Below, one piece after another: positions 3,936 through 41,018 of a DNA stretch of 64,000 bases. How positions within the stretch are numbered: the first letter of the stretch is position 1; each line of letters starts with the position of its first letter. The position numbers were made by a program, and so were the translations under genes. This DNA comes from Phycisphaerales bacterium (GTDB taxonomy: Bacteria; Planctomycetota; Phycisphaerae; Phycisphaerales; UBA1924), in contig JAVJVK010000019.1 of assembly GCA_040221175.1 (NCBI GenBank), forward strand, positions 310,001 to 374,000, written 5' to 3'. A model generated the notes under the pieces. It ran no database searches and had not been told where the DNA came from. It saw nothing but the letters and a program-made list of their open reading frames with translations.

Positions 3936-5459
3936 ATGCAGCGATCCGTAGCCCAACGCGTCGTCTTTCTTTGCGTTCTCCCTGTCCTTGCCGCCCTCGT
4001 GCTGGCCGGGCCGGGGTGTGCGAGCCGAACCAAGCAGGTCAGCGGCGACCCGCTGACGGACTTCCAGAACCCCGAGTTGCGGACGTCCCAGCGCGTCGCC
4101 GCCATGCGGGCTGCGTGGGAGGCCGCCGACCCCGATCGTGGGGCGATCCGCCCGCCCCTGAAGGATCTCGTCTGGAGCGACCAGACGCCCCAGGAACTCC
4201 GCCACGCCGCGGTTGATCTGCTGATGAGCGACGACTCGTGGTCGGGCCTGCGAGACTCGCGCAACTTTATCCAGGCCCGCGTCCCCACCGAGAAGGACTA
4301 CGAGGTCATCCGCCGCATGGGCCGACAGGCGGTCGCTCGCGGCTGGCAAGACCTGACGCCCGCCTTCGTGCGCTCGTACGCGATCGAGGACGCCGAAATC
4401 CCCGATCGGGCTCGCGTCGAACGCGTTATCCTCGAATCGCTTAATCCCGAGCAGCCCATGGAACTCATCGCCACCCGCGTGTTCCTGAACCCCCAGCAGG
4501 GCACGCTCGGCTCGATCGACCTCGACGCCCGGGCACGCGAAGCAGCCTGGGACCTCCTGGCCCGGCTGGACCCCAGCGGCGAAGCGCGTCGCGACGTGCT
4601 TGCCCGCGACGACCTGCCCACCGACGAGCAGGGAGCTCGTACGCTGCGGACGATCCGCCGGGGCCTGAACGAACTTGGGGTCGTACCGCGCAACGGCGAG
4701 GAACTCCGCTGGCTGCTGGCGCTCTCAAACGATGCAGACGGGCAGTGGTGGCAAGAAACAGCGGCAGCCGTTTCGCAACTGAGCCCCGAGCAGGCCGAGG
4801 GCCTGAAGCTGCGCAACCTGGAGGCGCTGCGCTGGGCGGCCACCTATCGCGAGCCCTGGATGCGCGACAGCCGAGTCCAACTGGAAGGCCGCTTGCGCGC
4901 ACGTATCGGAGATCGGGAGACTACGCCGCGCCGGGCCGACGCCCGGGATCTGCGCAATGTCCCGCAACTCCTGGACGAGAGTGCCGAACGCCTGAGCTGG
5001 GGTGATCTGCTCAGCATGCTGGCCGTAGACGTGGCGTTGCACGATCCAGACGTCATGCGGCGCGTGTTCGAACAGGTCGAGATGGATCGAGAAGATCAGA
5101 CCACCGAGTACGGTGGACTCCTGTTCGTCGATAGCTCGGGCCGGTTCGTTGCCCAGCTCTATCCGCCCAGGCCGCAGCACCGTAAGGGCGATGACCAATT
5201 CGTGGCCTCTTCGGACATGATCGAACAAAGCGTCCGTGCGCTGGCGATGTACCACTTCCACGTCATGCGGAAGCGCAACAGCCGCTTCGCTGGCCCGAGC
5301 GTCGAAGATCTGGCCCAAGCGAGGACGCACGGCCGGCTGGGCGTGGTCATCACCTCACTCAATGACGATGAGTTAAACGTCGACGCCTACACCGATGCGC
5401 CCGCCAGCGTTGACCTGGGCGCCCTGCCCCGTGTCCGGGCGTTCATGGACGGAAACTGA
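3936..5459 (+). CDS. Predicted lipoprotein of unknown function
   Basis: A 507-residue protein with an N-terminal signal peptide and a lipobox-like LAGPGC around residue 28. It is therefore probably a lipoprotein on the outside of the inner membrane or in the outer membrane. The rest is charged and mostly helical, with an acidic/Arg-rich character, and ends in a possible beta domain (TEYGGLLFVDSSGRFVAQLY; later HGRLGVVITSLNDDELNVDA). I recognise no enzymatic motif. The gene for an integral membrane M48 protease begins 13 bases downstream, so the two are probably co-transcribed and may work together at the envelope. Confidence 0.8.
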   Translation: MQRSVAQRVVFLCVLPVLAALVLAGPGCASRTKQVSGDPLTDFQNPELRTSQRVAAMRAAWEAADPDRGAIRPPLKDLVWSDQTPQELRHAAVDLLMSDDSWSGLRDSRNFIQARVPTEKDYEVIRRMGRQAVARGWQDLTPAFVRSYAIEDAEIPDRARVERVILESLNPEQPMELIATRVFLNPQQGTLGSIDLDARAREAAWDLLARLDPSGEARRDVLARDDLPTDEQGARTLRTIRRGLNELGVVPRNGEELRWLLALSNDADGQWWQETAAAVSQLSPEQAEGLKLRNLEALRWAATYREPWMRDSRVQLEGRLRARIGDRETTPRRADARDLRNVPQLLDESAERLSWGDLLSMLAVDVALHDPDVMRRVFEQVEMDREDQTTEYGGLLFVDSSGRFVAQLYPPRPQHRKGDDQFVASSDMIEQSVRALAMYHFHVMRKRNSRFAGPSVEDLAQARTHGRLGVVITSLNDDELNVDAYTDAPASVDLGALPRVRAFMDGN

Positions 5460-10282: not shown

Positions 10283-11350
10283 TCAGCAGCCAGCGTCGAA
10301 CTCGTTCTGGAAGGCCAGGAAGTCGAACAGCGTCAGGCTGCCATCGCCGTCAAAGTCGGCGGCGAGGTCGCCCGAGTCGAACAGGTTCTGGAACTCCAGG
10401 AAGTCGAAGATGGTCAGCGAACCATCGCCGTCCAGGTCGACGCGGCATCCACCACCCGAGCAGTCGCCGGCGATCTCCCAGAAGCTGACGAAGTCGACCG
10501 GACCGCCCTGGTTCATTGCGACGGCGTACGTGCAGTCGCCATCGGTGGCGATGTCCAGACCACCGGGGATGTGGTAGGTCGTGCCGGGAGGCGCCGAGCC
10601 GACGGAATCGAACTCGCGACCGGTCAAGGCGCGGGTGTCCGGATCCCACTCGACAAGCTTGGTGTTGGGCGCGGTGGTGCCCAGCGCCGTGTCGATGTAG
10701 GCGTTCAGCCACAGCGTGCCGTTCACGGCGTCGTAACCGGCACCGTACGCGGACGGGTCAGCGGCAGCGAGATCGAGCAGGAAGCCATCGCGATCGAGGA
10801 TCTGGATGGTTCCGCCGAAGTCCTTGGTGTAGAACTGGTTGCGATCGGTGTCCCACGCCAGAGCACGCACGGTGCCCAGCGCGCCGCTGGACAGGATCTG
10901 GGAAGCGGTCAAATCAAGCCGCTGGGTGCTCGGGTCGAACACGTACTCGCACAGTTCGCCGGCCTCGGCGCCGAAGAACAGACGGTTCTCGGCCTCGATG
11001 GAAGCGCCGTCGCGCTGGCCCCAGCTGGGTGAGTTGGTCAACTGGAGGTAGCTCTCCACCAGGTTCCAGTCGGTGTCGTACTGGTTGAGCACCTGCGTGC
11101 CGGTGACGAAGTCACCGTTGTGGGTGATCCAGTAGTAGCCGAACGCGAACTCGACGCCCAGGTTGCCGGTGTCACCGGTCAGTGCGTCGATGTCCACCGG
11201 CGTGAACAGGGCGTCGCCCAGGGCGAGCCAGCCGGCCCGATCGGAAGGCGCAGCCTCCTCGGTCGTGACGCCGTCGGTCACCTGGCCCAGGGCCAGGCCG
11301 CTGGCGGCCAAGAGTGCGAGAACGGAAACGGTCGAAGCGATGCGATCCAT
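10283..11350 (-). CDS. GC-type dockerin-anchored exported protein
   Basis: A 355-residue protein from an ATG behind GGAGAGG. A signal peptide (about 1-22, ending ALGQ) precedes a roughly 250-residue beta-rich region with repeated short blade-like segments (ALAWDTDRNQFYTKDFGG, TYHIPGGLDIATDGDCTYAV). This suggests a beta-propeller, though I recognise no named family. Two GC-dockerin repeats close the protein (DLDGDGSLTIFDFLEFQN and DFDGDGSLTLFDFLAFQN, ending DAGC). It is one of six such genes between 9.2 and 18.4 kb, and has its own terminator. Confidence 0.9.
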   Translation of the reverse strand: MDRIASTVSVLALLAASGLALGQVTDGVTTEEAAPSDRAGWLALGDALFTPVDIDALTGDTGNLGVEFAFGYYWITHNGDFVTGTQVLNQYDTDWNLVESYLQLTNSPSWGQRDGASIEAENRLFFGAEAGELCEYVFDPSTQRLDLTASQILSSGALGTVRALAWDTDRNQFYTKDFGGTIQILDRDGFLLDLAAADPSAYGAGYDAVNGTLWLNAYIDTALGTTAPNTKLVEWDPDTRALTGREFDSVGSAPPGTTYHIPGGLDIATDGDCTYAVAMNQGGPVDFVSFWEIAGDCSGGGCRVDLDGDGSLTIFDFLEFQNLFDSGDLAADFDGDGSLTLFDFLAFQNEFDAGC

Positions 11351-11560
11351 ATCACCTCTCCTTAGGCTTTTGTTAAGCAGCCAAGGTGCCGGTGACCCGT
11401 TGCCCAGTGGCCCACGAGTTCCGGTCACAGGCCGTCGCCAACCCCACCCCTGGAGGTTGCGCGCGACCTCATCCGCCATAGGTATACCCGATTTGACCGC
11501 AGGATGGAAGCCTATTTCACGTCCGAGATCCAAAAATTCCTGTCAGATTCATGGCCCTTG

Positions 11561-13198
11561 TCAGGGGCAGCCCGCGTCGAAAGCGCTTTGAAATGCCAGG
11601 AAATCGAAGAGCGTGAACTCGCCGTCCCCGTCCAGGTCGGCCCGGAGTTCTCCGGCGGCGAAGCTGGTCTGGAACGCCAGGAAATCGAACAGCGTGAGCG
11701 AGCCGTCCCCGTCGAAGTCGGCGCGACAACTCGAGGCCAGTACCGCGTCAACCGCGGCGGCGACATCCGGAAATGGTCCGATATGCCCGCCAGCACCCTG
11801 CGGCCGCCCGGTATCGATCAGCAAGCGCCGCAGATCTTCGGGCGGGATCGGCCCGCCCGTCGTGGCCTTGGCGATGCCCTGGAGCGACGCCGCCACGCCG
11901 GCGATGAATGGCGAGGCCGAACTGGTACCGCTGAACAAGTCCGTGTAGCTCTGGTTGCGGTCACCGCCGACGACCGCGAAGTGGCCATAGCCCGCAGTGA
12001 ACACGTTCTCGCCCCATCCCTGGACGTTGACCCGCGAGCCGAACGTGCTGAAGCCGAGCTTGGCGTGCGCCGTCGTCGAGGTCCCAGCGCCCACGATGAT
12101 CGCCCCGCTGTCACCACGTGAGCGGTACTCGGCGTAGGCGGCCGAGTCCAGGTTCTGGGTGCCGTTGCCCGCCGCCGCCACGACGACCACCCCGCGATCG
12201 ACCCCCGCCCGCGTCACCAGCCAGATCGCCGGGTCCAGCTCCGCCGGCGCATAGTCCCCGCCGGGGCCGAACGTCTGCATCTCCAGCAGCACCACGTCGC
12301 CGGCGTCCATCGCGGCGATGGCATTGGTGACAGCCGCCACGCGACGGAATGGCTCGCTCACCGACGCCTCGGGGAAGAACCATGCCTCGGCCCCGGGCGC
12401 GATGCCGCGTACGCCGTAGGCGTTGTCGCCGCCCACCATCTCGCCCAGCACCGCCGTCCCGTGCTCGTGCCAGCCGAAGGCGATGATGTCCGGATGCGGT
12501 TGCTGGCCGGGCTCGGGGATGACGTTGCACAGGTCTTCATGGTCGGGGCGGAACCAGTATTCGCAATCGGCGATGCGCACGCCCGCGCCATCCCCGCCCG
12601 GCTCGGCCCAGGCCGCCGCCATGCCCAGGCCCGGGTCCTCGCCCAGGTAATCCTGGAACTGGACCATCTGCGGCGTGGTGGGCAGCGTGTCGGTGCAGGC
12701 GTCGGGCCCGCCGGGCGGCTGGGGCCAGAGCTGCTCGTAGTGCACGTACTCGATCAGGTCGCTCGCGTGCAGCGCCCGCGCCATCGCCGCCACGTCGGCA
12801 TCGTCGGCCTCGTCGGTGCGGACCACCAGGATGGCCCCCAGGTCGGGCTGGGCCCGGCCGCTCCGGGCCGCCGCGTCGGCCAGGAAGTGCTGCAACTGGG
12901 CCTCGGTCAGCTCGATCACCGGCTCGAAGCGCACCGGCGCGTCGCCGGCGCTCGCGGCCGCCAGCGTGTCGACGAGCGGGGCCAGATCGACCCCGCGCAC
13001 GCTCGTGAGCGTGCCATCCCCCATCGCCCGCGCGCCCACGTGGTCGTGGAACTTCACCACCAGCCGGTGCGGGTACGCCGGCCGCTGGGCCAGGTCGGCC
13101 TTGGCCAGGGGCTGGCGGGGGGCACGCTGGGGCGCCGCGCTGGCGGTCGCCGCCAGCGCACACGAGAGCAGCAGGACGAGGCAGCGCGATCGGGGCAT
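11561..13198 (-). CDS. Secreted S8 subtilase with GC-type dockerin
   Basis: A 545-residue serine protease. A signal peptide covers about 1-21. An inhibitor-like propeptide region (about 45-150) follows. The catalytic domain has the Asp in GVRIADCEYWFRPDHEDL, the His in WHEHGTAVLGEMVGG, the oxyanion Asn in VVAAAGNGT and the nucleophile in FSGTSSASPFIAGVA. Two GC-dockerin repeats end the protein (DFDGDGSLTLFDFLAFQT, DLDGDGEFTLFDFLAFQS). The residue after the catalytic Asp is Cys rather than the common Ser/Thr, as in some S8 subgroups. It is probably a surface-attached extracellular protease. Confidence 0.93.
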   Translation of the reverse strand: MPRSRCLVLLLSCALAATASAAPQRAPRQPLAKADLAQRPAYPHRLVVKFHDHVGARAMGDGTLTSVRGVDLAPLVDTLAAASAGDAPVRFEPVIELTEAQLQHFLADAAARSGRAQPDLGAILVVRTDEADDADVAAMARALHASDLIEYVHYEQLWPQPPGGPDACTDTLPTTPQMVQFQDYLGEDPGLGMAAAWAEPGGDGAGVRIADCEYWFRPDHEDLCNVIPEPGQQPHPDIIAFGWHEHGTAVLGEMVGGDNAYGVRGIAPGAEAWFFPEASVSEPFRRVAAVTNAIAAMDAGDVVLLEMQTFGPGGDYAPAELDPAIWLVTRAGVDRGVVVVAAAGNGTQNLDSAAYAEYRSRGDSGAIIVGAGTSTTAHAKLGFSTFGSRVNVQGWGENVFTAGYGHFAVVGGDRNQSYTDLFSGTSSASPFIAGVAASLQGIAKATTGGPIPPEDLRRLLIDTGRPQGAGGHIGPFPDVAAAVDAVLASSCRADFDGDGSLTLFDFLAFQTSFAAGELRADLDGDGEFTLFDFLAFQSAFDAGCP

Positions 13199-15978: not shown

Positions 15979-16097
15979 CGGCCCCGCTGGCGAAGCGACA
16001 AGACAAACCCGGCCCCGCCGGCGAGGCGTCAAGATGAACCCCGCCCGTCTTCGGGCTCAAGCCCGAAGGGCGCGGCCCCGCCGGCAAGGCGTCAAGA
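15979..16097. repeat. Three 25-bp degenerate repeats plus a hairpin
   Basis: Related 25-mers start at 15979, 16010 and 16073, each running from CGGCCCCG to CAAGA. Copies two and three differ at one position. The third ends exactly at the stop of the gene at 16098. A perfect inverted repeat (CTTCGGGCT, 16049-16057; AGCCCGAAG, 16060-16068) lies between copies two and three. Confidence 0.7.
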
Positions 16098-16805
16098 CTA
16101 CTCGCAGCCGGCGTCGAACTCGTTCTGGAAGGCGAGGAAGTCGAAGATCGTGAGCTGGCCATCGCCGTCGAAGTCGGCGATGGGGTCGCCCGCGTCGAAG
16201 AGGTTCTGGAACTCCAGGAAGTCGAAGATCGTGAGCTGGCCGTCGCCGTCCAGGTCGACCCGGCAGGCGGTCGAGGCTTCGATGAAGTAGGTGGTCAGGA
16301 TGCTGCTCGAGCCCACGGGCGGGTAGGCCCCGAAGGTGGCGCCCGCGTGCGTGGCCAGGCCGGTGGGCGTCTCTGCGGGCGAGCTGGCCTTCCAGTCGTA
16401 GGTGCCCACGGCCGAGGAGGCGACGATCCAGTAGGTCTCGCCGCCCGCGAGGGTGAACGAATCTGCGGGGGTAAAGGTGTAGTCGCCGATGCCGGGGCTG
16501 AATGAGGCGGGATTCTCCAGGGTGGTGAGCAGCGTGCCCGGAGCGCCGCCGCCATCGCTGTAGATCTCCACCACCGGGACGACATCGACCGAAGTGATGT
16601 CCAGGCGCATGGTCAGGGCGTCGAGCCCCAGGTCGGACCCGCCGGGCATCGTGAAGCCCATGCCCTTGGTGCGTGTGGTCGCGTTGATGCCGGCGGTCTG
16701 GGTCCCGTCGTTGCCGGGATGGTTGCTGATGATCACTTCCGCCATGGTCTGGGCGGAAACGGTGAACGCCGCCGCAGCGGCAATGAGAAGAGAAGCAGTC
16801 TTCAT
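16098..16805 (-). CDS. GC-type dockerin-anchored exported protein
   Basis: A 235-residue exported protein with a signal peptide (about 1-22). The single domain of about 150 residues begins AEVIISNHPGNDGTQTAGIN and includes DALTMRLDITSVDVVPVVEI and GGETYWIVASSAVGTYDWKA. This is the pattern of choice-of-anchor jelly-roll domains found on many surface proteins; I would compare it with choice-of-anchor R, without certainty. Two GC-dockerin repeats end the chain at DAGCE. GGAG lies eight bases before the ATG. Confidence 0.88.
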   Translation of the reverse strand: MKTASLLIAAAAAFTVSAQTMAEVIISNHPGNDGTQTAGINATTRTKGMGFTMPGGSDLGLDALTMRLDITSVDVVPVVEIYSDGGGAPGTLLTTLENPASFSPGIGDYTFTPADSFTLAGGETYWIVASSAVGTYDWKASSPAETPTGLATHAGATFGAYPPVGSSSILTTYFIEASTACRVDLDGDGQLTIFDFLEFQNLFDAGDPIADFDGDGQLTIFDFLAFQNEFDAGCE

Positions 16806-19217: not shown

Positions 19218-20450
19218 GTGGAGCTTCCCCTCGAAGACTGGCAGGCATACGTGGACACCGGCCCGGCCCACGAGCTGCTGTGCGTCGACCCCGACCCCGG
19301 CGTGGTCGAGCTGGCGAGCCTGCGCAAGGACTGGCCCCAGGGCCTGGTCGCCGTGGCGGTCGAGGCGGCGCGGGCCCGCATGCGGGCGATAGACAAGTTC
19401 CACCCCGAGCTGGCCGATCGCATCATCGCCGACGAAGAAGGCGTCATGGTCGCCTCCTCGGCCCTGGCCGCGTCGCACAAGGCGGCGCGGTTCGTCCAGG
19501 CGGGCGCCGCCACGGCGCTGGACCTGTGCTGCGGCATCGGCGCCGACGCGTACGAACTCGGCCGCGCCGGACTGGCCGTCACGGGCGTCGATCGCAGCCC
19601 CGTGCGCGCGTGGATGGCGTGGATGAACGCGCAATGCGAGCGGCTTGTCGCGGACGTTGAGGATCAAGCCGTGCTCGAGCGCGTGCGGGGCGCCTTTGTG
19701 CACCTGGACCCCAGCCGACGCACGGGCTCGAAGCGGACCCACGCGTACGAGGACTACCAGCCCGGCCCCGAGACCATCGAGCGCATCATCGACGCCGCCG
19801 CGGGCGCGTGCGTGAAGCTGGGGCCCGGCGTCGACTTCTCGCGCCTGCCAACCCCGCCCGGCTCCTTCGTCGAGCTGATCAGCGAGTTCGGCCGCCTCAC
19901 CCAGGCATTGCTGTGGACCGGCACGCTCGCGGCGCACCAGGGCGTCAAGCCGGGCCATCGCGTCGCGACACGCCTGCCCGGGGGCGAGCGGTTCGCGGCC
20001 GAGCCCGGGCCGCTCATTGATCTGGGCGCGTGGTACGACTCGAGCGGTCCGGAGCGCCCGGTGCTCGAACACCTCTACGAGGCTGACCCCGCGCTCGAGC
20101 GTGGTTCGCTGCTGGGTGCCTTTGCCGAATCCCACGGCCTGCGGCCCATCCATCCGGCGGTGGGCGTGCTGACGGGCGAGAAGATCATCGATTCGCCGTG
20201 GCTGACCCGTTTCGGCGTGCTCGAGGCGATGCCCTGGCGGCGCAAGGCGGTCAAGGCCAGGCTGCGCGAGCTGGGCGCCGGCATCGTGGCGGTCAAGACC
20301 CGCGCCAAGCTGGTCGACCCCGATGCGCTGCAGAAGGACCTTCGCGGCACGGGCGACGAGGAATTGACCCTGTTCGTCCTGCGCCTGGGCGACAAGCCCA
20401 CCGCCATCATCACGCGGCGGGCGACCGATGAACCGTCAGTTGGCCCCTGA
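19218..20450 (+). CDS. Class I SAM methyltransferase with THUMP-like domain
   Basis: A 410-residue protein. Residues about 80-200 form a Rossmann methyltransferase with motif I ALDLCCGIGADAYELGRAG and motif II/III around VTGVDRSPVRAWMAW. FVHLDPSRRTGSKR supplies the DP-type catalytic-loop region. The C-terminal 100 residues (IDSPWLTRFGVLEAMPWRRK onward) match the THUMP-like domain that partners these enzymes, which suggests a tRNA or rRNA substrate. I chose the GTG at 19218 because it clears the divergent pcp gene and has AATGAT six bases upstream; ATGs at 19164 and 19176 are alternatives. Confidence 0.85.
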   Translation: MELPLEDWQAYVDTGPAHELLCVDPDPGVVELASLRKDWPQGLVAVAVEAARARMRAIDKFHPELADRIIADEEGVMVASSALAASHKAARFVQAGAATALDLCCGIGADAYELGRAGLAVTGVDRSPVRAWMAWMNAQCERLVADVEDQAVLERVRGAFVHLDPSRRTGSKRTHAYEDYQPGPETIERIIDAAAGACVKLGPGVDFSRLPTPPGSFVELISEFGRLTQALLWTGTLAAHQGVKPGHRVATRLPGGERFAAEPGPLIDLGAWYDSSGPERPVLEHLYEADPALERGSLLGAFAESHGLRPIHPAVGVLTGEKIIDSPWLTRFGVLEAMPWRRKAVKARLRELGAGIVAVKTRAKLVDPDALQKDLRGTGDEELTLFVLRLGDKPTAIITRRATDEPSVGP

Positions 20451-20813
20451 CGCCTCGGCTGCCGGATGCACCTTCCACGCCGCCCCGCACTCGGGGCACA
20501 CCACGCATCCATCGGGCTCGATGGGCAGCCCGGCGATCTCGTACTCGCAGCATGCGCACGTGCCCCTGGCGATCAATCCATCGGCCGCCTGCTGCCGGCC
20601 GCTGATGAACCACCACAGCATCCAGATCACGAAGCATCCGCCGGCAACGACCAGGCCGAAGAGCCCGGTGAGCGCGAAGGCGAGCGCGATGGCGATGAGC
20701 GCCAGCCCCTTGCCCAGGGAGATGTGGTCGCGCAGCCCAAGCGGGGGCGTGTGCAGCGAACCCGCGGCCTCGCGCTTCTCGCCCCGCCCATCGGTGATGG
20801 TGGCCGCCTTCAT
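20436..20813 (-). CDS. Zinc-ribbon two-TM protein, paralogue 1
   Basis: A 125-residue protein with two hydrophobic helices at about 33-65 (KGLALIAIALAFALTGLFG and GGCFVIWMLWWFISG). A C-terminal zinc ribbon follows, CACCEYEIAGLPIEPDGC then CPECGAAWKVH. Its ATG overlaps the stop of the preceding paralogue (ATGA), so the two are coupled. The last 15 bases overlap the convergent methyltransferase gene. The ribbon with a CPECGxxWK end recurs in five genes here. The role is unknown; rubredoxin- or ribosome-type zinc knuckles are possible comparisons. Confidence 0.8.
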   Translation of the reverse strand: MKAATITDGRGEKREAAGSLHTPPLGLRDHISLGKGLALIAIALAFALTGLFGLVVAGGCFVIWMLWWFISGRQQAADGLIARGTCACCEYEIAGLPIEPDGCVVCPECGAAWKVHPAAEASGAN

Positions 20814-21304
20814 GCCCCTTCGATTCGTGCTCGCGCGAGCGAGGGTTCCGCTCCCAACACCCTCGCACGCCCGGCGGGCCGGCCATCTTCGGTTCGCCAC
20901 GCCGCATCGCACCGCCCGCACACGCGAACATCATCCTTGCCCGTCTTCGAACGCGCGAGCGGAGCGCCGCATCCCGGGCACGCGCCCCGCTCCAGCCATC
21001 GCGCACGTCGCCTGTGGTTCGTCGAGATCGAGAGCACCGCCGCCACGGCCACCATCGCCGCCACCGCGATCACGCCACCGAAGGCCCAGCCCGCCGTCCC
21101 GGCGACCTGGGTTTCGCCCCACCGCCAGAGCTTCAGGCTCACCGCGACCATCGCGAAGAACAACAGCCAGCCGAGCAGCCCCGGGCCCGCCGAACCTTCC
21201 ACCCGCGCCCGCGCGGCCTCATCCATCTCGCGCACGCGTCGACCCCGATCATCGCGCATCAAGGGCCCGAGCACGAACGCGCCCTCGCCGTGCAGCCGTG
21301 TCAT
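20810..21304 (-). CDS. Zinc-ribbon two-TM protein, paralogue 2
   Basis: A 164-residue protein. MTRLHGEGAFVLGPLMRDD at the N-terminus matches the start of the paralogue at 22478 (MTRLLGEGALFPLVTPRDD). Two transmembrane segments lie at about 43-62 and 73-92. The ribbon is ACPGCGAPLARSK...RVCGRCDAAWRTED, diverged from its sisters, and is followed by a 25-residue tail. A GGGGGA precedes the ATG in both paralogues, and the homology extends into that leader, so this is a recent duplication. Confidence 0.8.
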   Translation of the reverse strand: MTRLHGEGAFVLGPLMRDDRGRRVREMDEAARARVEGSAGPGLLGWLLFFAMVAVSLKLWRWGETQVAGTAGWAFGGVIAVAAMVAVAAVLSISTNHRRRARWLERGACPGCGAPLARSKTGKDDVRVCGRCDAAWRTEDGRPAGRARVLGAEPSLARARIEGA

Positions 21305-21547
21305 GGCGTCCCCCGCGGCATGGGGGATCTTTGGCCCGCGGCCCTGGGTCCGCGTTCAGCCGGTCTTCTCGTCCAGCTTCGATGCGCTCCCGCACGCCGC
21401 GCCCACGCGAGCATCGGCGGCCACGCGCAAACGGATCGCGCCGCGGGCGCGCAGGTGAAGATCGCCGGTCCCAACCCCGGCGGCCAGCGTTCGTTCATCG
21501 TGGCCCGAAGCACAATCCCGGCGTTTCGGGCAGTCCAGTTGGGCCCC

Positions 21548-21811
21548 TCAGGCGATGGCCAGGGCCGGTCCGTTCTCGGTCTGGTCGATGCTGAGGGACT
21601 TCTCGGCCAGCTGGGTGGCGATGGGCGTGGCGACGGCCAGGACAACCCTTCCGTCGTGCTCGAACGTGGTGTCCTGGTCGTTGGGCGTGTCGGGGGCAAG
21701 CCCGAGTCCCTCATCGCTGACGACCAGCCGGATCGTCGCCTCCTCGGGCAGGCCGTTCTGATCGATGATGTCCTTGAGGAAGACCTTGGCGTCGTCGGTG
21801 ACGGTGAGCAT
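21548..21811 (-). CDS. HesB/IscA-like small protein without cluster cysteines
   Basis: An 87-residue protein whose pattern follows the A-type Fe-S carrier/HesB fold: MLTVTDDAKVFLKDIID, IRLVVSDEGLGLAPD, TTFEHDGRVVLAVATPI and a C-terminal IDQTENGPALAIA. The conserved cysteines of IscA are absent, so it belongs with HesB-like proteins that have lost or changed cluster binding. It lies between zinc-ribbon paralogues on the same strand, with gaps of over 200 bases on each side. I am fairly sure of the fold, not of the function. Confidence 0.7.
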   Translation of the reverse strand: MLTVTDDAKVFLKDIIDQNGLPEEATIRLVVSDEGLGLAPDTPNDQDTTFEHDGRVVLAVATPIATQLAEKSLSIDQTENGPALAIA

Positions 21812-22015
21812 GCGATGCCCCTTCCGTGCGGCTTTCGCGGCCGATCGCGTCACGCGCCGGGCGCAGCATCGCGATCGCGCCGCGGTTGGGCGCATCTGCG
21901 CTCGAACACTCGCACGAACGCACACACGCGTGGGAATCACAGGCTAGACGGTTCGCACGCCCGTGTCAGCCCCCGGCGTGTGCGGGTTGCGCCTCCGCGT
22001 GCGCACGCGCACGGT

Positions 22016-22390
22016 TCACGCATCCATCTTCCACGCACTCCCGCACTCGGGGCAGATGCGACATCCATCTTCCTCGGGTTCGAGTCCGGCGATGGAATAG
22101 CCGCAGGCCGGGCATAAACCCCGGGCCCGGCCGAGCCGGTCGGACTCTCGGATCGCCTTATGCTTCGTCCACGCCGCGCTCACGTAGAAGCAGGGAGCCA
22201 TGGCGGCGAGCACGAGGGCGTAGCGCAGCCAATGGGGAACCAGGCCGTGCAGCCCGATCAGCACCGCGAACCCCATCGCGGCGGCGATGAAGGCCAGCAC
22301 GAGCGGCACGCCGCCCCTGCGCACCGCGCGGTCGCGCCATGACTGCACCGTCGACACATCGAACGCGTACGCCTTCCCCCGATCGTCCAC
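22016..22390 (-). CDS. Zinc-ribbon two-TM protein, paralogue 3
   Basis: About 124 residues with two transmembrane helices (GGVPLVLAFIAAAMGFAVLI and HWLRYALVLAAMAPCFYV). The ribbon is LCPACGYSIAGLEPEEDGC, then RICPECGSAWKMDA as the C-terminus. The EPEEDGCR loop is nearly identical in paralogue 5. The start is uncertain: a GTG at 22390 gives VDDRGKAYAF, and an in-frame TTG at 22411 adds seven residues. The family order on this strand is 5, 4, 3, HesB-like, 2, 1. Confidence 0.75.
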   Translation of the reverse strand: MDDRGKAYAFDVSTVQSWRDRAVRRGGVPLVLAFIAAAMGFAVLIGLHGLVPHWLRYALVLAAMAPCFYVSAAWTKHKAIRESDRLGRARGLCPACGYSIAGLEPEEDGCRICPECGSAWKMDA

Positions 22391-22477
22391 GCATCGCGGC
22401 CAGAGCCTCAAGATGTCCGCTCGGGCTGCGCGGGCTGGCGGTTCAATCTCGGCATCGTCTATCCTTCGCCTGCCGGT

Positions 22478-22963
22478 TCACGCATCAGCGCGGGCGGTGC
22501 CATCTTCCATCTTCCACGCGCTCCCGCACTCGGGGCAGATGCGGCAGGTGCCTTCTTGGGGTTCGATCTCGGTGATGGAACGGCCGCACACCGGACACAC
22601 GCCCAGCGCCAGCGCGGCCCGGCGTTGAACACGCATCCAGCGGCGGTTCATCAGCAAGAGCACGGGCCAGAACAGCACGAGCGCCGTGGCGATCACGAGC
22701 GCGTCGCCCGCGAGGCCGGCGATCTGGACGCGATCTTCCAGGCCGCTCATCCGCAGCAGGATGACGAAGATCAGGCCAATGCCAAACCCCGTGGTCGACT
22801 CGCTCCGCACGCGCCGCGTGATCCTCGCCCGGGCCTTCGCATCGCCCCCGGACATCCGCCCGGCGATTTCCTCGACGTCCACGCGCGTCCGCGCGGCCCG
22901 GCCGAGATCATCGCGCGGTGTGACCAGGGGAAAGAGGGCCCCCTCGCCCAGCAGCCGTGTCAT
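22478..22963 (-). CDS. Zinc-ribbon two-TM protein, paralogue 4
   Basis: A 161-residue protein starting MTRLLGEGALFPL; an in-frame ATG nine codons upstream is less likely because paralogue 2 shares the downstream start and its GGGGGA leader. Transmembrane segments lie at about 66-85 and 95-115. The ribbon is VCPVCGRSITEIEPQEGTC, then RICPECGSAWKMED, with a short acidic tail. It is followed 66 bases later by paralogue 3. Confidence 0.78.
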   Translation of the reverse strand: MTRLLGEGALFPLVTPRDDLGRAARTRVDVEEIAGRMSGGDAKARARITRRVRSESTTGFGIGLIFVILLRMSGLEDRVQIAGLAGDALVIATALVLFWPVLLLMNRRWMRVQRRAALALGVCPVCGRSITEIEPQEGTCRICPECGSAWKMEDGTARADA

Positions 22964-23002
22964 GGCATCCCCCGTGGCATCGGGAATCATTGGCGCGCCG
23001 GC

Positions 23003-23461
23003 TTACGCCTCGGCGTCGGTGGTCTTCTCATCCATCTTCCACGCGCTCCCGCACTGCGGGCACACGCGACATCCATCTTCCTCGGGTTCGACGTCGGTGA
23101 TCGTTGTGCCGCACGCCGGGCAGCGGCCCTGCGCAAGCCAGCCGGTGCGCAGGGCCTCGATCGTGCGTGGGAGCACGAACGGGCGCATGGCCAGGCCAAC
23201 CACCGCGCCGAACACGGCCGCGATGCCCAGGGATGCCAGATACGGAACGTCGGGCAGCACCAGGAAGAGCACCGGGAAGGCAACGGCGAAGATGATTCCC
23301 ATGCGCATGCCGTGGCGGCCCGCCTGGCGGTTCATGCCCCGCAGCGCGGCGCTGGCCGTCGCGTCATCCACGCCCGCGCGCCGGGCCTTGCGCTTGGAGG
23401 TCAGCCAGCCCGAGGGGGCGATGGCGTTGCGGTCGTCCGGATATCGGGTGCGCAAGAGCAT
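23003..23461 (-). CDS. Zinc-ribbon two-TM protein, paralogue 5
   Basis: A 152-residue protein with GGAGGGG before its ATG, probably the first gene of the cluster transcript. The N-terminal basic region is followed by two transmembrane helices at about 52-72 and 75-95. The ribbon is RCPACGTTITDVEPEEDGC, then RVCPQCGSAWKMDE. Gaps to paralogues 4 and 3 are short (39 and 66 bases or so), consistent with one operon. Confidence 0.8.
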   Translation of the reverse strand: MLLRTRYPDDRNAIAPSGWLTSKRKARRAGVDDATASAALRGMNRQAGRHGMRMGIIFAVAFPVLFLVLPDVPYLASLGIAAVFGAVVGLAMRPFVLPRTIEALRTGWLAQGRCPACGTTITDVEPEEDGCRVCPQCGSAWKMDEKTTDAEA

Positions 23462-23713: not shown

Positions 23714-23756
23714 AGTCGGAGCGCCGATGGCCGCGCATCCCATGTTCATTTCTGGC

Positions 23757-23911
23757 GCGCGCAGCGCACGGCGTGCGTTGCGCGCCCGGGCTCTCGAAGC
23801 CCGGTCCCGGGCTTCCGATGCGCGCAGCGCAGGGCGTGCGTTGCGCGCTGTGGGCGTCGAAGATCGATCTTCGGCTCCCCGAGCGCGCAGCGCACGCCGT
23901 GCGTTGCGCGC
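23757..23911. repeat. Three 29-bp palindromic repeats at exact 63-bp spacing
   Basis: Near-identical 29-mers start at 23757, 23820 and 23883. Each runs from GCGCGCAGCGCA to TGCGTTGCGCGC and is itself an imperfect palindrome. The two intervening segments are both 34 bases, differ from each other, and each contains a further palindrome (for example CGAAGATCGATCTTCG). The period of 63 equals three turns of 21. The array lies upstream of, and in an open frame with, the gene at 24045. Confidence 0.85.
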
Positions 23912-24044
23912 TCAAGGAGCGGAACACCGGACTTTTTTGCCCCACGACCGGTATTTTGCGTCAAGACCCCCCGTCACGATGCCGAAACCCAGGAGAACAG
24001 CCCCCCGGATTCGGACCCCGGGGGGCGACGGGAGGCCGCGCGCC

Positions 24045-24680
24045 ATGCCGACGGTGCCGCGCGGGCGGAGGGGGGCCATTGCCTTCTTCGGCTCGCGGAT
24101 ATCCAGGTGGACCCAGCGGGCCGCGGACATCGGCCTGAGCGATCAGGACGCCGCGCTGCTGGCCCAGGCGCTCGACGCCGCACGCGCGGCCGAGGAAGAG
24201 AACCGGCGCTGCCAGGCGCGGGCACGCGCGGCGGCCAAAGAAGCGCGCCGGCTCGAGTACGAGTTGCGCCGAAAGGGCGGTCGCCTGATCTCGGTGATCC
24301 GCGCGAAGGCCAAGAGCGAACATGATCCGGGCGTCCTCGTGCTGGCGGAGCTTCCCAAAGAAAAAGACCCGCGCCCCACGCCCAGACCGCCGATGCCAAC
24401 CGGCGTGCGCACAACGGTCGACCACGACGGCGCCGTCGTGATCTCGTGGACGGCAACCCGCCCCCGCCCCCACGCCCGCGCGTTCACCAGGGTGGAGCGC
24501 ATGCTCGACGGCTCGGGATGGTTCGAGCACATCGGTTCGACCGGCACGAACGAGTTCAGGGACGACACGCTGCCGCAGGGCACGCGCGAGACGGCGTACC
24601 GGTTGACGCCGGTGCGCGGGGACCTCGTTGGGGCGTCGGCGGAAGCTGTTGTTGTGCGGTTTGGGACGCGCGCGGCGTGA
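24045..24680 (+). CDS. Helical plus FN3-like domain protein, paralogue A
   Basis: A 211-residue cytoplasmic-looking protein. Residues about 15-95 are charged helices, possibly a coiled coil (ALDAARAAEEENRRCQARAR). A Pro-rich linker (about 103-115) follows, then about 90 residues with a fibronectin type III-like pattern: VDHDGAVVISWTATRPRP, FTRVERMLDGSGWFEHIG and a terminal YRLTPVRGDLVG strand. The ATG at 24045 has GGAGG nine bases upstream. An upstream ATG at 23979 is in frame, and the frame stays open back through the palindromic array. Paralogues lie at 25725 and 40041. Function unknown. Confidence 0.75.
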   Translation: MPTVPRGRRGAIAFFGSRISRWTQRAADIGLSDQDAALLAQALDAARAAEEENRRCQARARAAAKEARRLEYELRRKGGRLISVIRAKAKSEHDPGVLVLAELPKEKDPRPTPRPPMPTGVRTTVDHDGAVVISWTATRPRPHARAFTRVERMLDGSGWFEHIGSTGTNEFRDDTLPQGTRETAYRLTPVRGDLVGASAEAVVVRFGTRAA

Positions 24681-29777: not shown

Positions 29778-30827
29778 GTGGCCAAGAAGAAGACCAGCAC
29801 CGCCAGGACGTCCGGAGCCTCGAAGGCCAAGGGCGGCGCTTCCGCCGCGGGCAAGGGCGCTTCGAAGAAGAAGACCGCCTCGAAGAAGGCCCCCGCGAAG
29901 AAGGCCGCCGGCGCGGGCAAGAAGACCGCCGCCAGGACTACCAAGAAAACGGGCGGCGCCGCGTCGAAGAAGGCCGCCACGGGCACGAAGAAGAAGCCCG
30001 CGGCGACGCAGAAGAAGGCCCCCGCGGCGAAGACGACCCGGAAGTCCTCCGCGAAGAAGACGACCACCAAGAAGCCCGGCGGGAAGAAGACCTCGGCAAA
30101 GAAGCCCGCCGCGGGCAAGACCACCAAGAAGGCGCCCACGAAGAAGAACACCACCAAGAAGGCCGGCTCCAAGAAGGCGCCCGCCAAGACGCCGGCGGCT
30201 AAGCAGGCCGAGACCCCCGCGGCCCCGCCCGCGCCGCCACCGCCACCGGCAACGTCGGGCGGCAACACCAGCGGCTCGGACAACAAGCCCGCGCGCCCGA
30301 GCCGTCCCAAGCGGCCCAAGCCGCCCGCGGCGGTCATGCCCGAGGGCATCGGCGGCCTGCTCAGCCCGGGCGGCCCGGCGCGCAAGCCCCTGATCGCCTC
30401 GTCGGAGCGCGTGGCCGCCGAAGAGGCCGCCCAGGCCGAGAAGTACCCCACCAAGAGCCCGTTCAACAAGCGCGAGCTCGAGAAGTTCCGCCAGGTGCTG
30501 CTGCAGAAGCGCAACGAGGTGCTCAGCGAAGTGACCGGGCTGGAGGGCGGCGCGCTGACCAGCGGAGGCTCGGGCAACCTGAGCCACACCCCACAGCACA
30601 TGGCCGACGCCGGCAGCGACGCGGCCGACCAGACCCTCTCGCTGGACCTGGCCGCCGCCGAGCGCAACCTCATCAAGGAGATCGACGCGGCCCTCAAGCG
30701 CATCGCCGACGGCGTGTTCGGCCTGTGCGTGGCCACGGGCAAGCCCATCCGCAAGGAACGGCTCCAGGAACTGCCCTGGGCCCGCTACTCGATCGACGCC
30801 GCCCGCCAGCTCGAGGGCAAGCGCTAG
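29778..30827 (+). CDS. Histone H1-like tail fused to DksA/TraR-like domain
   Basis: A 349-residue protein from a GTG with GGAG five bases upstream. Residues 1-150 are a Lys/Ala/Thr/Pro tail made of KKAPAKK- and TTKK-type units, like histone H1 or bacterial nucleoid proteins. A Pro-rich linker (about 155-215) follows. Residues about 250-349 match DksA/TraR/YocK: the coiled-coil FNKRELEKFRQVLLQKRNEV, then ERNLIKEIDAALKRIADGVF and IRKERLQELPWARYSIDAA. The C4 zinc finger is broken: the first Cys remains (GLCVATGKPI) and the others are replaced. It probably binds DNA; a DksA-like role at RNA polymerase is uncertain. Confidence 0.88.
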   Translation: MAKKKTSTARTSGASKAKGGASAAGKGASKKKTASKKAPAKKAAGAGKKTAARTTKKTGGAASKKAATGTKKKPAATQKKAPAAKTTRKSSAKKTTTKKPGGKKTSAKKPAAGKTTKKAPTKKNTTKKAGSKKAPAKTPAAKQAETPAAPPAPPPPPATSGGNTSGSDNKPARPSRPKRPKPPAAVMPEGIGGLLSPGGPARKPLIASSERVAAEEAAQAEKYPTKSPFNKRELEKFRQVLLQKRNEVLSEVTGLEGGALTSGGSGNLSHTPQHMADAGSDAADQTLSLDLAAAERNLIKEIDAALKRIADGVFGLCVATGKPIRKERLQELPWARYSIDAARQLEGKR

Positions 30828-39256: not shown

Positions 39257-39427
39257 GGAGTCAGCCATCCTGACGCCCCGCAGGAAGCCGCCAACTTCTA
39301 CAAGCGTTCCGGCCGGCTCATCAAGCTCATCACCGTCCAGGAATTCCTCGACGACGAGCACGCCCAGCGGATCTGCGGCGCAGGGGAGGCTGTAGCGGGT
39401 CGGGTGGCGCGACGCCGAGCAGATGCG
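39257..39427 (+). pseudogene. In-frame coding-like remnant after the HrgA-like stop
   Basis: Past the TGA at 39254-39256 the same frame stays open and reads QEAANFYKRSGRLIKLITV, then QEFLDDEHAQRIC, to about 39389. It has good codon usage and amphipathic pattern. It could be the lost C-terminus of the HrgA-like protein cut off by a nonsense mutation, or a fragment of another gene. There is no ribosome binding site of its own. Confidence 0.35.
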
Positions 39428-39700
39428 CAGCGCGGTGGAGCCGGTTTACCGCGCTGCGAACCGGTTTCACCGCGCCGCAGATCGGTTTCGCAGCGCTGCG
39501 CACGCGTTCTACCGCGCTGCAGGACGGATCCACCGCGCCGCAAAATGGATCCACCGCGCTGCGGAGCCGTTTTGCAGCGCTGCGGAATGGGTTCGCAGCG
39601 CTGCAGAACCGTTTTACCGCGCTGCAAAATCGATTTACAGCGCTGCAAAACCGTTTTACAGCGCTGCAGAACGATTTTGCAGCACCCCGAAGGGGCTTGA
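39428..39700. repeat. 21-bp tandem satellite, 12 full units plus a truncated one
   Basis: Units begin at 39428, 39449, 39470, 39491, 39512, 39533, 39554, 39575, 39596, 39617, 39638, 39659 and (degenerate) 39680, with no insertion or deletion. Each has a near-invariant half, C-M-GCGCYGC (often the palindrome CAGCGCTG). The variable half is of the type RRAACSGWTTYA (often a palindrome around AAACCGTTT). Every frame encodes a heptad repeat; on the plus strand it is [RS]AAxx[FIV]x, with a polar or charged residue at position four in most units. Twenty-one bases equal two helical turns. Confidence 0.95.
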
Positions 39701-40040
39701 GCGAAACTTCGCGGCAATTTCTTTTTGCCCCAAGAACCGCCCCTGCGGCCTCCCAGGGCGGTTTTCGTGCGCCGAGCACGCGCGACGGCGGCGCCAGGCC
39801 CGGAAATGTTGCCGATTTTCCGGACTCGGGCTGGAGTCGCCCCCGGATCGCCCCGATGACCCGGATAACCCCGGCCGTCGTGGTCCGGGAAGTTTCGTTC
39901 ACGCGGTCGCCCGCTCGTTTGGGGGTCGCCGCCAGTTCCAGGAGCTTCGCCATGTTGATGCGCGATGTTCACACGCCGTCGGCGGCCCGGTTCGTATTGG
40001 TCGCCACCGTCCGGACACTCCGTTCGCAAGGAGCACAATC
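39701..40040 (+). other. Leader region between satellite and FN3-like gene
   Basis: About 340 bases without a convincing gene. It begins with a T-rich tract (CAATTTCTTTTTGCCCCAAG) that resembles the tract after the other palindromic array (GGACTTTTTTGCCCCACG, from about 23928). The plus frame of the downstream gene remains open throughout, back into the satellite. Confidence 0.5.
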
Positions 40041-40730
40041 ATGAGCACCATCCCACGAGAAAACGACGCCGCCGTCGCCTGGTGCGCCACGCACCTTCCC
40101 ATCTGGACCGCCAACGCCGCCGCCATCGGGCTCGATCCGCTCGAGCTTGCCGAGCTGTCGACGCTGATTTCCGAGGCCAATACCCGCCTGACCGCGCGGG
40201 ACCAGGCCAAGGATGCCGCATCGGGCGCCATCGGCTCGTTCAACGAGGCGGCCGGGCTCATGCGCGACATGGCGGCCCTGCAGGTCACCAAGATCCGCAC
40301 CTTCGCCAAGGCCAGCGACACGCCGGCCATCGTCTACGAGGATGCGCAGATCCCAGCCCCGGCCGACCCCTCGCCGCGGCCGGCGCCCGGCACGCCCGTC
40401 CTGTTCACCGTGGCCCTGGACCAGAGCGGGGCGCTCAAGGTCGAGTTCAAGTGCCCCAACCCGCCACGCGTCACGGCGCTGACCTACCGCGTGGAGCGCA
40501 GCCTGGGGGCCCAGCAGCCCTTCGTGTTCTTCAAGAACGCCAAGGAGCGGTCCTTCACCGACGACACCGTGCCCAGCGGCTCGGGCGACGTGACCTACCG
40601 CGTCACGGCGCAGTCGTCGACCAAGGACGGCGCCCCGGGCTACTTCACGGTGCGTCTGGGCGTGAACCAGCAGGCCCAGCCGCAGGTGGAGATCATCCGC
40701 CAGGGGTCCAGCGAGAGCGAGGCCTCGTAG
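40041..40730 (+). CDS. Helical plus FN3-like domain protein, paralogue C
   Basis: A 229-residue protein with AAGGAG seven bases before the ATG. Residues about 8-100 are helical (VAWCATHLPIWTANAAAIGL, ELAELSTLISEANTRLTARD, LMRDMAALQVTKIRTFAKAS). A Pro/Ala linker (DAQIPAPADPSPRPAPGTP) follows, then an FN3-like domain (FTVALDQSGALKVEFKCPN, TYRVERSLGAQQPFVFFKNA, SGDVTYRVTAQSSTKD). It is the best-formed member of the family also seen at 24045 and 25725, and I recall similar proteins in other planctomycetes. There are no signal or membrane segments; function unknown. Confidence 0.82.
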   Translation: MSTIPRENDAAVAWCATHLPIWTANAAAIGLDPLELAELSTLISEANTRLTARDQAKDAASGAIGSFNEAAGLMRDMAALQVTKIRTFAKASDTPAIVYEDAQIPAPADPSPRPAPGTPVLFTVALDQSGALKVEFKCPNPPRVTALTYRVERSLGAQQPFVFFKNAKERSFTDDTVPSGSGDVTYRVTAQSSTKDGAPGYFTVRLGVNQQAQPQVEIIRQGSSESEAS

Positions 40731-40880: not shown

Positions 40881-41018
40881 GGCAATCGGGACTCGGCAAT
40901 CGGCAATCGCCGGAGGAAGGAACGTGCGTTCGCGTCCGCTCTTCCCGGATGCCGATCCCCGAGTCCCGATTGCCGAATCCCGATTGCCGAATCCCGGATG
41001 CCGATCCCCGATTGCCCC
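40881..41018. repeat. 14-bp tandem repeats with an inverted copy
   Basis: Units of the type CGATTGCCGAATCC recur head to tail at about 40967-41018. The 19-mer CCCGGATGCCGATCCCCGA occurs at 40944 and again at 40993. A shorter reverse-complement set (GGCAATCGG, repeated) lies at 40881-40911, so the RNA could fold into a long hairpin. The 40731-41033 interval contains no other feature I can support. Confidence 0.7.

Follow-up and report, generated by a model that had tools for sequence, protein, structure and literature searches.

A phased array of 29-bp dyad repeats upstream of a sigma-28-like promoter motif in a Phycisphaerales genome: a candidate operator array

The window (the whole 64-kb stretch of DNA that was analysed) belongs to the 3.44-Mb genome of a Phycisphaerales bacterium. 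An array of three 29-bp repeats and two spacers lies in it between the divergent genes 23003-23461 (minus strand) and 24045-24680 (plus strand), as called with a simple codon-usage caller. The features of this locus are given below, together with two that belong to a second member of the same gene family; G005, G001 and G006 are related genomes.

23003..23461, minus strand: divergently oriented gene whose small product shows, by eye, CxxC zinc-ribbon-like motifs along with hydrophobic segments
23757..23785, plus strand: 29-bp dyad repeat, copy 1, dyad at 23771; conserved in G005, G001 and G006
23786..23819, no strand: spacer 1, 34 bp, with an inverted repeat centred about 3 bp off the midpoint, read by eye
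23820..23848, plus strand: 29-bp dyad repeat, copy 2, dyad at 23834
23849..23882, no strand: spacer 2, 34 bp, with a perfect 16-bp palindrome at the exact midpoint, read by eye
23883..23911, plus strand: 29-bp dyad repeat, copy 3, dyad at 23897
23961..23988, plus strand: sigma-28-like promoter motif, TCAAGACC - 12 bp - GCCGAAAC, PWM 14.3
24045..24680, plus strand: gene for a 211-aa protein with a helical N-terminal half and an fn3-like sandwich; paralogous family with 45 genome matches
39422..39683, plus strand: 21-bp-period array of the second family member, of the same element class as the focal array
39832..39859, plus strand: sigma-28-like promoter motif between the 39.4-kb array and the gene 40041-40730, PWM 30.8

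The start-to-start spacings of the 29-bp repeats are 63 and 63 bp and both spacers measure 34 bp, so the three repeats and exact 63-bp period of the original prediction were confirmed at 23757, 23820 and 23883. The repeat had also been described as a full palindrome. Its dyad symmetry is clear but near-perfect only: 12-bp arms flank a variable 5-bp centre, and G-T pairs are frequent at positions 8/22. Likewise, the description of the spacers as palindromic holds for spacer 2, whose palindrome is 31.5 bp from the flanking dyads, but only loosely for the off-centre inverted repeat of spacer 1, and spacer symmetry is not kept in G006. A link to the 39.4-kb array had been proposed from the period; both arrays do fall into one class with periods of 21, 42 or 63 bp, but the focal array shows the 63-bp period alone and lacks the 21-bp one.

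Searching the window with up to three mismatches returned six matches of the 29-mer (the three sites on both strands), whereas 100 shuffles gave none. At the same tolerance the genome holds six sites of the focal pattern, and a reversed control pattern yielded none. These are the focal three and C19:517090, 517174 and 517279, which form a second locus spaced at 84 and 105 bp, that is, 4x21 and 5x21. The genome-wide count thus found the 63-bp spacing at the focal array but not at the C19 locus, and all six copies lie within two arrays rather than as the many isolated copies expected of a common REP element.

Orthologues of the focal gene were identified in G005 (81%), G001 (67%; a Phycisphaerae MAG, JAUHYE01) and G006 (66%; the Phycisphaeraceae MAG TGS_PLA1, JAHCJI01). 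The array accompanies them at a 63-bp period, in three copies in G005, four in G001 and three in G006. The distance from the last dyad to the -35-like T was 64 bp in all four genomes, even though G001 has four copies. In G001 the -35-to-ATG distance was 105 bp instead of 84, and the 64 bp were kept, indicating that the array is coupled to the promoter motif and not to the start codon; the promoter-like motif of G001 has a PWM score of only 3.7. Over the last three copies, pairwise identity was 0.85-0.93 in the repeats and 0.37-0.65 in the spacers. The 49 bp between the last repeat and the -35 element were 0.33-0.53 identical and fixed in length. For comparison, the 200 bp upstream of the last three copies gave 0.26-0.34 in an ungapped alignment (the G001 stretch includes the fourth copy), and third codon positions gave 0.56-0.73. 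Length is thus maintained even in stretches whose sequence has diverged.

Three other genomes of the same genus (G002, G003 and G004) contained no copy of the focal dyad, and their best homologue of the focal protein was only 26-37% identical. Four of 21 genomes, each belonging to this genus, had 3-6 sites of the dyad pattern at up to two mismatches; the other 17 had none. Exact-match scans, which may omit our own or near genomes, covered 84,980 genomes and returned the MAGs of G001 and G006 plus a lone copy in an unrelated Ectothiorhodospiraceae MAG; viral contigs gave no match of the focal dyad. The lone copy (L229 1955-1983) follows a gene that looks rho-like by eye and is not in an array.

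The focal promoter motif is weak (14.3); 0.8% of 520 control 500-bp windows reach a PWM score of 14 (0.2% reach 17). The family motif is CTnAAGTC - CCGATG. Its PWM was seeded by eye and refined on the same 45 family upstream regions of which 42 score at least 13; the remaining three score 9.7, 4.0 and 1.4, and the largest of 225 shuffles was 11.4. Among 241 gene-upstream intergenic regions from control stretches and the window, three reached 20, one of them belonging to a window family member. The family motif matches the cores of the sigma-28 consensus, given as TAAAGTTT-n11-GCCGATAA in PMC2859248, but has one base more between the elements. FliA is encoded in the genome (match over the cut-off), and the motif was found before two of four flagellin-like genes (22.3 and 16.4; the other two 4.7 and -2.6).

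The family of the focal gene has 45 matches in the genome, the weakest two with E>0.001 in one search. A structure model built from three window paralogues (mean pLDDT 73.5, pTM 0.42) combines a beta sandwich with three helices, two of them short and one of 60 residues, and its best Foldseek matches in the PDB were fn3 domains (best E 6.6e-5). Assignment of the focal protein to a known family was rejected: it had no Pfam match above cut-off, no PADLOC match and no PDB-sequence match, its sub-threshold Pfam and NCBIfam matches being set aside. No window family member exceeded the Pfam cut-off, and eight other members had no match at E<=0.01. A protein search of genome and viral contigs, from which records near our own genome were possibly omitted, gave no confirmed relatives. 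Among 20 relatives, 21-62 matches were found in five of the six same-genus genomes, two in the sixth (G002), and 0-1 in each of the other 14. Four family genes (G000 C4:370, C13:363, C1:605 and C19:558232) lie within about 600 bp of contig ends, where arrays or family genes may break the assembly.

Periodic arrays accompany many other family members. The best autocorrelation lag (14-63) in up to 1000 bp of upstream DNA was 21, 42 or 63 in 30 of 45 members, at least two of these calls being no better than shuffles. Under a strict rule (autocorrelation >=0.6 over 84 bp within 600 bp), arrays precede 23 of 45 family genes, the focal gene included. Control genes have them in 17 of 414 cases (Fisher p=4e-16), and in 15 of 88 when only those with 300 bp or more of intergenic DNA upstream are counted (p=8e-5). 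The remaining 22 family genes are without an array by this rule. In 584 kb with 130 intergenic regions of at least 170 bp, 14 regions carried a 21/42/63 array and two an array with lag 14. Two of the 14 are the window family arrays, and 12 precede non-family genes, one of the 12 being doubtful. One of the 14, L095 (0.62), resembles proline-rich coding DNA. Tandem regions had 10 arrays in 71, divergent ones four in 48 and convergent ones none in 11. Control stretches of 520 kb contained about 12 arrays. Thirty-eight arrays of the genome print in unbroken 21-bp register, with detection favouring in-phase arrays. The focal array is absent from these 38 because it repeats only at 63, and C1:605, which is one of them, may have no relation to its gene, 1 kb away.

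Arrays were also found in relatives, where 24 of 30 family loci pass a similar test. Intergenic regions of relatives, sampled with a gene caller trained on our own genome, carried 21/42/63 arrays in 2 of 46 (G004), 0 of 26 (G005) and 0 of 19 (G002) cases within the genus and in none of 76 (about 366 kb) outside it; G013 had four arrays at other lags (14, 31, 58 and 64). A limited literature check, covering titles and abstract starts, found no 21-bp arrays in planctomycetes among the matches listed. When units were compared over 780 pairs of the genome's own arrays, two pairs stood far above the null, scoring 61 and 33 where 150 null draws reached at most 17, namely the focal array with C19:517 and two L098 arrays 6 kb apart. 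At least 13 further pairs scored 18-23, a little above the null maximum. Unit sequences are thus mostly private to each array, so a single regulator is unlikely to recognise every array through its sequence. The L098 arrays (4942-5275 and 11215-11724) have a 42-bp unit in common, and the first shows a self-similarity of 0.98 at lag 42. Downstream of the second family gene of the window, a 7-bp-unit array at 40942-41016 (periods 14, 21 and 28) resembles short tandemly repeated heptamers, and a similar 7-mer array is present in G002 (L199).

Control of the divergent zinc-ribbon-like gene instead of the fn3-like gene was considered and rejected, given that no such gene was called beside the array in G006, where the array is retained. 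The second locus (C19:517090-517279 type) also flanks a zinc-ribbon-like gene, in G000 and G005, so this gene could be an additional target. The gene at the second locus is related to a run of small minus-strand genes in the window (20436-23461), several of which have a similar C-terminal CxxC zinc-ribbon-like end (by eye). In L174 and L175 (G001 C94 and G005 C1:299428) the second locus of the focal dyad adjoins a ruvA-like gene (by eye), and that of G005 adjoins an apparent further 21-bp array. Elsewhere in the window, 29778-30827 encodes a Lys/Ala/Pro-rich repetitive N-terminus with an apparent DksA/TraR-type end (by eye), and 31-bp and 81-bp tandem repeats occur at 15979-16257, the latter lying inside a called gene and looking dockerin-like by eye.

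We consider, with moderate confidence, that the best explanation is a helically phased operator array on double-stranded DNA, bound cooperatively by a dimeric protein and acting in cis on a FliA-type promoter, either as an operator or as an upstream activating array. In this model a dimer of a DNA-binding protein would sit on each 29-bp dyad. Six helical turns make up the 63-bp period and two make up 21 bp; with a period of whole turns, bound dimers would lie on one face of the helix, where cooperative binding would be possible. The bound dimers may form a filament, loop or wrap, with the last dyad 64 bp upstream of the promoter, and a sigma-28 (FliA)-type promoter would drive the fn3-like gene. 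Protein binding and transcriptional control, whether by activation or by repression, are inferred. Across other family arrays the phase between dyad and promoter was weak (n=13, p=0.15); a set of 15 chosen post hoc gave p=0.044, and array-to-promoter phase beyond the focal locus is suggestive only. LytTR regulators, the kind to which PlnC and PlnD belong, include binders of 21-bp-spaced sites. As binders of these arrays they were rejected, PF04397 having no match in the genome and one each in 2 of 21 genomes. Other points that count against the operator reading are the private units, the 17 of 38 arrays in which no dyad is significant, the 22 family genes lacking an array, the arrays before non-family genes and the plus-strand G-U bias of the focal array.

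The original prediction had left the choice between a structured RNA and a protein-binding array; the promoter motif, the gene family and the private arrays across the genus come in addition to it. The conservation of repeats, period and promoter distance in four genomes favours DNA, and an array that works as plus-strand RNA, whose 29-mers fold as hairpins (a leader, a processed small RNA or an RNA antitoxin-like repeat), is unlikely in our judgement. At the focal array itself some signs point to RNA. Folding energies were -143 kcal/mol for the plus strand and -122 for the minus strand, and the plus strand also gave the more stable RNA in G005, G001, G006 and the second locus, partly through base composition. 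Over 18 repeat copies, G-T exceeded A-C at the paired positions, chiefly at 8/22 and 14/16: position 8/22 was G-T in 14, G-C in three, A-T in one and A-C in none, position 14/16 had nine G-T and no A-C, and position 13/17 showed a C-G/G-C exchange (five and five copies). The copies share descent, however, so the G-T excess represents few events, which weakens the RNA reading, and the predicted promoter is downstream of the array. The 64-kb window had no Rfam match at the gathering threshold. Given the plus-strand G-U bias, an RNA role at the focal array alone is a live but weaker rival.

As a general rule, an RNA hairpin array was not supported by the strand tests. Against a column-permuted null (60 permutations per array), 21 of 38 arrays showed excess dyad symmetry at p<0.05, the other 17 being without a significant dyad; the mean z was 2.0. 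At the best dyad centres of the 33 arrays with p<0.2, G-T and A-C mismatches numbered 195 and 214 (expected 233:233). In 58 arrays (38 of our own and 20 from relatives), for which the strand is arbitrary where a non-family array has diverging genes, 26 had the plus strand as the more stable RNA; after correction for composition the strand difference was -0.46 +/- 0.94 kcal/mol. This lack of an RNA-type strand bias argues for double-stranded DNA. Intrinsically curved DNA was rejected because the 10.5-bp harmonic share in A/T vs G/C was 0.10 in the 58 arrays, equal to the flat expectation of 0.10; the purine/pyrimidine harmonic showed a slight excess (0.14). Closing hairpins acting as terminators were also rejected: in 56 arrays, strong inverted repeats were present at the gene-proximal end at 0.23, in the middles at 0.23 and at the start at 0.07, and in 15 cases that were displayed mostly no T-run followed.

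The arrays might be neutral or selfish minisatellites, produced by a mutational process of the genus that makes functionless 21-bp tandem duplications in long intergenic regions. This would account for the mostly private units and the common higher-order 42/63-bp repeats; orthologous arrays at 85-87% protein identity were either similar (L138) or largely turned over (L146, 87%), and the turnover at L146 fits it as well. Such a process would not be expected to keep sequence, period and promoter distance of the focal array in four genomes between nearly unalignable flanks, nor to concentrate arrays before one gene family or to hold 38 of them in unbroken register (which detection favours), and we regard it as improbable. 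Chromosome-organising or partition-like sites in iteron or parC style, merely near promoters, are quite improbable: known centromeres are phased repeats overlapping promoters (PMC5016525), and the arrays in the control stretches speak for this reading, but organising sites should share one sequence, which these arrays mostly do not, and the association with one promoter class is strong and the promoter distance exact. Reading the translated neighbours of the focal array by eye gave no recognisable par or rep gene.

CRISPR arrays have the repeat/spacer look, and REP elements the palindromic repeats, that are also seen at the focal array. Despite the near-identical repeats and equal-length spacers, there is very little probability that the array is a CRISPR in degenerate or cas-less form, or REP elements in a cluster. 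Cas1 (PF01867) had no match in the genome (completeness 100), while the control was positive in 9 of 14 genomes, and positions 23740-23930 of the window matched none of 50,697 phage records and none of 72,556 plasmid records at E<=0.01. The search for spacers of phage origin therefore came back empty, and the earlier view that this is not an ordinary CRISPR held. Moreover, the spacers remain 37-65% identical in register between genomes and look inherited rather than acquired. The REP reading was rejected on the absence of scattered copies, six in the genome and the dyad pattern in 4 of 21 genomes only.

Several known systems resemble the proposed operator array in part. CRP at the E. coli aer and trg promoters provides a dyad for a dimeric activator at a fixed, face-dependent distance from a sigma-28 promoter, and moving the site at aer to the other helix face abolishes activation (PMC2859248). 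Unlike the focal array, with three to four sites further upstream, aer has one site at -49.5 (PMC2859248); the sequence here is private to each gene, and many sister arrays have 8-14 units. Tandem phased repeats in several copies, overlapping or flanking the controlled promoter, are also found in parC of ParR and parS of omega (PMC5016525), but the arrays here are chromosomal, number dozens per genome and lie beside a non-partition gene family. The PlnC/PlnD sites are 9-bp repeats with a 12-bp gap, giving a 21-bp start-to-start spacing on one face directly upstream of the -35 (PMC2714321); these are two sites compared with 8-14 here, and LytTR proteins are absent from our genome. BldC filaments similarly involve a cooperative multimer on a variable number of phased promoter repeats (PMC5859096), but on 9-bp direct repeats with one AT-rich consensus, whereas the arrays here are dyads, private and mostly GC-rich.

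We tentatively extend the operator-array proposal to a genus-specific architecture, which we think possible though not probable: tens of paralogues with FliA-type promoters, each with a private, fast-evolving, 21-bp-phased array. The array would be an address. Its reader could be a matching, diversified binder, perhaps the paralogue itself acting in trans on the second locus, or a protein that recognises phase and dyad symmetry instead of sequence. The genome carries dozens of such arrays, counting the 23 family arrays of the strict rule and the approximately 12 in 520 kb of control stretches. Elsewhere, phased operator arrays are known singly; here they mostly have their own sequences and a common two-turn period, and they are concentrated before one expanded gene family with a shared flagellar-type promoter motif. 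If they are functional, they would raise the questions of how tens of promoters use one geometry with different sequences and what reads them. With length kept where sequence is not, these arrays amount to a natural experiment on helical phase.
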